A DNA stretch of 54,637 nt from Bacteroidota bacterium (GTDB taxonomy: Bacteria > Bacteroidota > Bacteroidia > Cytophagales > Microscillaceae). Below the pieces are notes generated by a model. It was not told the DNA's origin. It ran no database searches and was given only the letters and a program-made list of their open reading frames with translations. The stretch covers positions 1 to 54,637 of the forward strand of contig RDXZ01000012.1 of assembly GCA_004293265.1 (NCBI GenBank), written 5' to 3'. Of this stretch, positions 20,213 through 45,902 are shown piece after piece; position 1 is the stretch's first letter, and each line of letters opens with the position of its first letter. The translations under genes and the position numbers were made by a program.

Positions 20213-20297
20213 TTGAACTTCGTGCAAGTGTGGAGGCTTGACGAGTACTCACTGGTGCAAGCCTCCACACTTACACCAAAATAACCTAAATAGTTAC
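20213..20297 (+). repeat. Dispersed hairpin element family A, copy 1
   Basis: TTGAACTTCGTGCAAGTGTGGAGGCTTG...CAAGCCTCCACACTTACACC...CTAAATAGTTAC; 19-bp stem with one mismatch. Confidence 0.85.
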
Positions 20298-20384
20298 AAA
20301 TTTATTTAATTTTGATTACTAATCAATTGATTTTCAATTATTTATAAATAAAAATTATTTTCATCAAAATATTTTGACTTGTCA

Positions 20385-20442
20385 TTTTGAAATAATAGTC
20401 TGTACCAATAAATCTTACAAAAGTCTGACTATTATTTCAAAT
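20385..20442 (+). repeat. Dispersed hairpin element family B, copy 1
   Basis: TTTGAAATAATAGTC / GACTATTATTTCAAA 15-bp perfect stem enclosing TGTACCAATAAATCTTACAAAAGTCT. Confidence 0.8.
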
Positions 20443-20460
20443 TAAAAAATTATTTTAAAT

Positions 20461-20520
20461 ATTTTTCAGAAAAAGAGGTCTGTATCGTAGTTTATGAAAG
20501 TCTGACAAAATTTTTATATC
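20461..20520 (+). repeat. Family B, copy 2 (degenerate stem)
   Basis: GAGGTCTGTATCGTAGTTTATGAAAGTCTGAC, loop motif kept, stem poorly paired. Confidence 0.6.
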
Positions 20521-37991: not shown

Positions 37992-38120
37992 AACGTGAAT
38001 TTGATATAACAATAACACGAAAAATATACTTGTTTTTCAAAAAAGTGGTCAGACCTTTGTTCTACTTTGGTACAGACCACTTTTTTTGAAAAATTACATA
38101 CTTTTTTAAATTATTGTTAT
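37992..38120 (-). repeat. Family B element, copy 3 (hairpin at 38033-38093)
   Basis: TTTTTCAAAAAAGTGGTC / GACCACTTTTTTTGAAAAA; complement carries GTCTGTACCAAAGTAGAACAAAGGTCTGAC; TIR-like AACGTGAATTTGATATAAC at 37992. Confidence 0.85.
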
Positions 38121-38123
38121 CTC

Positions 38124-38180
38124 CAAAACGCCATTCAAAAAGTGGTTGCTTCACTTCGTTCGGCAGGACAAAACATTATA
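38124..38180 (-). repeat. Element C, copy 2
   Basis: Complement TATAATGTTTTGTCCTGCCGAACGAAGTGAAGCAACCACTTTTTGAATGGCGTTTTG, near-identical to 23200-23251. Confidence 0.8.
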
Positions 38181-38201
38181 CTAACAGCAATAACAATATT
38201 C

Positions 38202-40862: not shown

Positions 40863-40949
40863 TATGAGTTTAAATATTCATTTTTTGTGCAAATATAACT
40901 ACTTTTTTTGAATTAAATCTCACAAATGATGAATTTTTTTAGAACGCAA

Positions 40950-41001
40950 ATAAAAATTATCTTAAACTCACGTTAAGTGAGTTTATTTTAGTATAAGTAT
41001 A
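40950..41001. repeat. Solo or degenerate family-B terminal sequence
   Basis: ATAAAAATTATCTTAAACTCACGTT closely matches ATAAAAATTATCTTCAATTCACGTT of 45765-45902; followed by AAGTGAGTTT (palindromic). Confidence 0.55.
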
Positions 41002-45764: not shown

Positions 45765-45902
45765 AACACGTGAGTTCGAGATAACAATAGTTCAAAAAAG
45801 TGTGTAATTTTTCAAAAAACGAGGTCTGTACCGAAGTTTACGGAGGTCTGACCTCGTTTTTTGAAAAATATTTATAAATAAAAATTATCTTCAATTCACG
45901 TT
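45765..45902 (+). repeat. Family B element, copy 4 (best preserved; MITE-like)
   Basis: Ends AACACGTGAGTTCGAGATAAC / ATTATCTTCAATTCACGTT are imperfect inverted repeats; central perfect 20-bp stem ATTTTTCAAAAAACGAGGTC / GACCTCGTTTTTTGAAAAAT with 23-nt loop TGTACCGAAGTTTACGGAGGTCT. Confidence 0.85.

Follow-up and report, generated by a model that had tools for sequence, protein, structure and literature searches.

A MITE family with IS982-type ends and its hairpins, which share one tip on exchangeable stems with MITEs of unrelated ends

The 54,637-nucleotide stretch of a Bacteroidota genome analyzed here (Cytophagales, Microscillaceae; contig RDXZ01000012.1 of assembly GCA_004293265.1), referred to below as the window, contains at positions 45765-45902 a short unit in which a hairpin lies between inverted repeats. 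A preliminary description of this DNA took the unit for a MITE-like element, noted that its loop recurs elsewhere in the window on stems that vary and remain complementary, and proposed a structured RNA, a protein-binding hairpin or a transposase recognition end. The locus raises two questions: what the unit is, and how a loop stays constant while its stem changes. That the unit belongs to a family of non-autonomous transposons (MITEs), as a copy that has decayed and been rearranged, is well supported; the family is new, but of an ordinary, known type. The unusual part is the hairpin tip, which is shared by exchangeable stems and by unrelated MITEs. The explanation that we regard as probable in its entirety combines an IS982-type MITE, two hairpins with a shared tip, template switching with recombination, and recognition of the tip.

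MITE copies and hairpins in the window

The pattern GTCTGTAYCN{5,25}GTCTGAC matches the window four times, at 20398-20429 (+), 20478-20506 (+), 38048-38077 (-) and 45824-45852 (+), and gives no match in 100 shuffles. When 31 hairpins from four genomes were used to build a covariance model, with four of its rows being own-genome copies in or near the window, the model recovered exactly the same four hairpins; all copies of the initial account are present. For three of the four, folding is far stronger than in shuffled sequence: 20386-20441 (z = -4.8), 38033-38093 (z = -4.3) and 45807-45869, which has a paired stem of 20 bp within a 138-bp unit that reaches z = -7.3 as a whole. The copy at 20478 has lost its stem, and its folding energy shows no excess over shuffles. 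The imperfect terminal inverted repeats of the 45765-45902 unit are real, the left one being identical to the consensus and the right one deviating at two positions. The features of the family in the window are as follows.

45768..45784, plus strand: left terminal inverted repeat ACGTGAGTTCGAGATAA, IS982-type, 0 mismatches to ACGTGAGTTYRRGATAA
45785..45806, plus strand: 'B-end' module CAATAGTTCAAAAAAGTGTGTA, placed on the left in this unit; it is the reverse complement of the sequence that ends standard copies on the right (e.g. L002, L004, L012-L014)
45807..45869, plus strand: hairpin with a 17-bp outer stem, GTC/GAC and the fixed tip (81.3 bits, covariance model)
45824..45852, plus strand: constant tip GTCTGTACCGAAGTTTACGGAGGTCTGAC (pattern match)
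45885..45901, minus strand: right terminal inverted repeat ACGTGAATTGAAGATAA, 2 mismatches
37993..38009, plus strand: terminal repeat of a second MITE copy ACGTGAATTTGATATAA, 2 mismatches
38033..38093, minus strand: hairpin of the second copy, stem CAAAAAA(A)GTG/CACTTTTTTG (62.1 bits, covariance model)
38048..38077, minus strand: tip of the second copy with a divergent apical loop AAAGTAGAACA (pattern match)
20310..20506, plus strand: two-hairpin MITE copy with A-end module, hairpin A and degenerate hairpin B, 87% identity to stitched consensus positions 20-211
20386..20441, plus strand: hairpin A, stem TTTGAAATAATAGTC/GACTATTATTTCAAA (52.3 bits, covariance model)
20478..20506, plus strand: tip of the degenerate hairpin B, stem lost (33.7 bits, covariance model)
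40957..40973, minus strand: isolated terminal-repeat remnant of the same MITE family, 0 mismatches

The MITE-like reading is borne out by terminal repeats and copy number throughout the own genome (G000, a 4.03-Mb draft), and the family is far from confined to these few copies. Sites matching the terminal repeat ACGTGAGTTYRRGATAA with at most two mismatches number 86, compared with 8 for the reversed control; the loop pattern occurs 15 times, its reversed control never. A stitched 268-bp consensus collects 87 BLAST pieces from about 50 loci. Copies with paired repeats are short (79-390 bp) and non-coding, and they are mosaics composed of end modules A, B and C and hairpins A and B, with other repeats inserted within. 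The full-length form carries both hairpins, which have unrelated stems and the same tip of about 29 nt. Its sister species (G002) possesses about ten copies that match the 268-bp form nearly end to end at 83-85% identity, which shows that the two-hairpin form genuinely exists and was not created by stitching. One copy in the own genome lies between perfect 9-bp target duplications, TAAAAACTA; none was seen around the window copy at 45765-45902.

Several other repeats accompany the family. The isolated remnant of the IS982-type terminal repeat, AAATTATCTTAAACTCACGTT, adjoins an inverted partial copy, AAGTGAGTTTA, at 40930-40990. A second repeat, GTTGCTTCACTTCGTTCGGCAGGACAAAACATTATACTAACAGCA, lies at 38125-38200 beside the second MITE copy, and a diverged copy of it is inserted inside another member of the family (L066, G000:C84:1515-1827). 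Palindromic repeats of the GTGCAAGCGTCCACGCTTGCAC type are found near 20225-20280 and at two further loci (L007, L036), beside or within MITE copies on several contigs.

IS982-type terminal repeats

The terminal repeat of the window unit, AACGTGAGTTCGGGATAA, is a repeat of the IS982 family of insertion sequences. The exact 18-bp repeat was found in at least 117 stretches of named genomes from Cyanobacteria, Bacteroidetes, Chloroflexi, Proteobacteria and others. Ten elements of about 1 kb bounded by this repeat were examined, and seven of them, all in other genomes (L145, L152, L159, L166, L168, L196 and L252), give strong matches to the IS982 transposase model NF033520 (E 1e-46 to 1e-78); two more contain weak fragments (L182, L213), and one has no IS982 transposase match (L235). 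Target duplications of 6-8 bp flank 25 of the 59 paired elements with the same repeat, compared with 1.6 for shuffled flanks. The published IS982 terminal repeat is 5'-AC(N)6T(N)5TT, with target duplications of 2-10 bp (PMC7335449), and the repeat AC-GTGAGT-T-CGGGA-TA fits it except at the last position (A, consensus T).

The earlier idea of a partner transposase with matching ends holds for the family of the enzyme, identified by terminal repeats, element length and target-site duplications, but the transposase itself was not detected in the own genome. The draft is 91.6% complete and gives no NF033520 match, which may reflect loss or an assembly gap; we therefore limit the claim to IS982-type ends and regard the family as an orphan in this draft. 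Another genome of the same bacterial family (G013) retains IS982 remnants beside a near-identical repeat. The MITE copies would have been moved in trans by an IS982-family transposase through DDE chemistry.

Other small elements with such ends were observed in other genomes. A 145-bp MITE with the IS982 repeat is present in many copies in Pseudanabaena, alongside 63-bp deletion forms (L146, L151, L167, L222, L228, L233, L245; also L153, L154). In G025 (L118, L122, L128), minimal elements of about 51 bp include little beyond the two IS982-type terminal repeats and are flanked by the 6-bp duplications TATCTA and TATTTA.

The shared tip, its distribution and its carriers

The tip, in the form GTCTGYACC-N(6-14)-RAGGTCTGAC, is present in 13 copies in the own genome, 7 and 39 copies in its congeners G001 and G002, and 120 copies in a genome of another genus (G009). 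The other 11 genomes of the bacterial family have none, and every reversed control gives zero. Among 391 genomes of the order only two further genomes match, G130 from another family (68 copies) and G114 (one copy), and in a sample of 297 genomes of the phylum no match was found outside the own genome. A covariance-model scan, in which the best 150 candidates per genome were scored and both strands of some palindromes are counted, gives 34 matches in the own genome, 17 in G001, 61 in G002, 149 in G009, 111 in G130, 8 in G114 and one in G010, and none in five other genomes. One locus in G114, from another family of the order, has a true stem topped by a diverged tip, GTCTGTACCAAAGCAAAGGTCTGAC, and lies between two divergent genes (L422); it may represent an older version of the module or one that moves less. 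Plasmid and phage records contain no match to the 45765-45902 unit. A viral contig that matches the tip pattern (L341) was rejected as a chance hit: it is a single match in G+C-rich, coding-like DNA with no A+T stem.

The same tip is found on about ten unrelated, paired stems. The MITE backbones that contain it have unrelated terminal repeats and number five or six, depending on whether the ACTGATGTTACGCAA repeat of G002 is a diverged form of the IS982-type end; the tip also occurs in single hairpins in a few related genomes. The backbones are listed below by their terminal repeats; all carry two hairpins except the second backbone of G009.

IS982-type, own genome and G002
CTGGGAACTGCGGAAA, G009, with readable 6-7-bp duplications (e.g. 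TTGATA, TATATG, AAGATTA)
AGGAACGAAAATTAAATAA, G009 (second backbone)
ACTGATGTTACGCAA, G002
GGTTGTCTGACAATTTTTG, G001
TTTGCTACCGTACACT, G130, with the 9-bp duplication TTTATTCCA

The hairpin with the shared tip is thus a repeat module separate from the MITE backbone. The preliminary suggestion that the hairpin is a transposase recognition end is not supported: the terminal repeats, which are separate from the hairpin, serve as transposase ends, and the tip is common to MITEs whose terminal repeats are unrelated. A contrasting type of hairpin, found at loci of the own genome and its relatives, shows the reverse pattern, with a constant stem, TTTTTGAAAGTG on one arm and CACTTTCAAAAA on the other, and a variable GC-rich tip that remains self-complementary.

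The shared tip also largely refutes the reading of the hairpins as ordinary bidirectional rho-independent terminators that resemble each other by chance or convergence, which we consider barely credible. An A-tract before and a T-tract after several stems are in its favor, and GAGGTCTGACCTC-GTTTTTT scans as terminator-like. However, a T-tract of the terminator type is missing from stem types A, E, F and H, and convergence cannot yield a near-identical 29-nt tip at 7-120 copies per genome when reversed-pattern controls give zero.

High copy number, intergenic location and inverted pairs 46-90 bp apart are also features of REP/BIME-like palindromes, which are moved as single-stranded DNA by a Y1 (RAYT/IS200-like) transposase. 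The foot of the hairpins has no GTAG or CGTC, the stem feet are unrelated, and the copies carry terminal repeats of DDE type and target duplications, all of which argue against this mode of movement and make it very improbable. As a candidate mover the Y1 transposase was also rejected on its distribution: Y1_Tnp was undetected in G002, which has 39 exact copies, and is present in many genomes free of the motif.

Alternatively, the tip could itself be a very small unit, mobile or convertible, that inserts at the centres of palindromes, or that primes flank-to-flank copying so that any flank becomes a stem. Its presence on some ten stems and in five or more backbones, all unrelated to one another, fits this model, as do the internal direct repeat GTCTG and deletions between its copies. 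It is nevertheless unlikely in our judgement, since the loci examined in the own genome and its relatives include no convincing empty palindromes, i.e. the same stems without the tip, and since we know of no carrier enzyme for a 29-bp mobile unit. Candidate empty palindromes proved to be either loop deletions between the GTCTG direct repeats or chance A/T matches.

The distribution of the tip suggests that it is either recognised by something or swapped between mobile elements, and selection on the tip is likely, if unproven. Its constancy across unrelated backbones far exceeds that of the rest of the elements and is not explained by template switching alone. In the explanation that we prefer, the tip would be held constant through recognition of the DNA or RNA hairpin by a protein or by transcript machinery, which would help the host MITEs to persist; this is the weakest step. 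It can be speculated, tentatively, that the tip module is a cis-acting helper common to unrelated transposons (for instance, as the site where a single host protein binds, or as an RNA stabiliser through which MITEs survive better) or a hyper-parasite passing between MITEs, with stems that need only pair.

Stem covariation, gene context and comparison with known systems

The covariation of stems around a fixed loop, first noted in the window, was strongly confirmed and extends to other genomes. In the 31 diverse hairpins, both partners vary in 16 of the 19 stem pairs, and covariation scores 0.511, compared with 0.140 for shuffled rows and at most 0.171 for slid structures. These rows were picked for good pairing, so an unbiased test was added in which copies were selected by the tip alone; there, 10.8 of 12 flanking positions pair, compared with 7.6 after shuffling.

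Such a pattern would be expected if the hairpins were structured RNAs in 3' untranslated regions (stabilisers, terminators or protein-binding sites), with RNA-level selection keeping the pairing and the MITEs serving as a mere vehicle. Gene context is compatible with this reading, the hairpins being mostly downstream of genes: 38 are convergent and 25 co-directional in the sense orientation, compared with 10 co-directional antisense and 10 divergent. The excess of 25 sense over 10 antisense copies is suggestive, but the counts are not independent due to paired hairpins, and a bias towards gene ends is common among MITEs. The genes preceding the window copies encode a type II topoisomerase B subunit, threonyl-tRNA synthetase (convergent with a phosphoglucomutase-like gene) and a phosphoglucose isomerase-like protein. 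No hairpin is present downstream of the orthologous topoisomerase gene in either congener, which is consistent with an insertion rather than with an RNA long fixed at this place. In the congeners the genes flanking the window copy are not neighbours and the surrounding gene order is different, hence no clean empty site or target duplication is readable. On the sense strand, A-C mismatches occur alongside G-U, with no evident strand preference, and a search of Rfam gives nothing at the gathering threshold, only sub-threshold matches far below curated scores.

Another argument against the RNA reading comes from individual decayed copies, in which compensatory changes are private and loops are inverted. 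One locus (L012) is a chimera of the left arm of hairpin A and the right arm of hairpin B; in another A/B chimera (L006) the arms have since become complementary; a third locus (L005) has a paired change found in that copy only. The loops of L390, L361, L302 and L314 are inverted relative to other copies of the same element types, and in the window the tip at 45824..45852 is oriented relative to the B-end opposite to standard copies; these orientation claims rest on hairpin pairs. We discarded an automated test of orientation relative to the B-end, which allowed up to 5 edits and was too permissive for this A+T-rich DNA.

Template switching can create and maintain hairpins and invert their loops (PMC8794818). 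Chimeras, private paired changes and inverted loops are what recombination at the tip and template switching would be expected to leave behind, and they weaken the step from covariation to RNA function. They show that recombination and template switching produce at least part of the stem covariation: the covariation characteristic of a structured RNA family is present and is at least partly explained by template switching. The preliminary suggestion that covariation reflects selection on structure stands with respect to the covariation, which is very strong, and is weakened by compensatory changes, chimeric arms and loop inversions in single dead copies. Mechanistically, recombination at the shared tip may join arms from different hairpins, and template switching during replication may then copy one arm onto the other, sometimes inverting the loop, so that stems stay paired. 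On balance, we consider a primary function as structured RNA possible but doubtful.

Across several genera and two or more families, MITEs whose terminal repeats are unrelated have in common a constant tip whose stems are exchangeable. Should something recognise this tip, it would be a dependency that unrelated mobile elements share. If it is not, the module provides a clear natural case of template switching and recombination leading to textbook covariation without RNA function, and a caution for covariation-based RNA discovery. To our knowledge, no described family has a shared tip on exchangeable stems in unrelated MITEs, and a literature search of open-access papers found none of this form. 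Short palindromic repeats are usually classified by stem or foot.

Among known systems, the closest to the MITE itself is the IS982-derived MITE of Cardinium cOegib, about 240 bp long, in a genome that contains intact parental IS982 copies (PMC9769881). Both are non-autonomous, have IS982-like inverted repeats and encode no transposase, whereas the window family has no detected IS982 transposase in its own genome and carries hairpins that share a tip. Compared with the IS982 family (PMC7335449), the window element has a repeat that starts with AC and fits AC(N)6T(N)5T; the duplications read at other elements with this repeat are within the short range published, and elements of about 1 kb with the same repeat encode the transposase. 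The window element differs in being gene-free and in having A for the last consensus T. The REP/BIME palindromes, tagged by GTAG and CGTC (PMC3733652), are likewise high-copy and intergenic and often form inverted pairs, but the hairpins described here are constant at the tip and not at the foot, have 15-20-bp stems that vary freely, and are carried in MITEs with terminal repeats. Finally, the hairpins generated by template switching in RNA genes (PMC8794818) show the same multiple simultaneous compensatory changes and loop inversions, whereas the loop of the present module is long and constant over unrelated stems and host elements.
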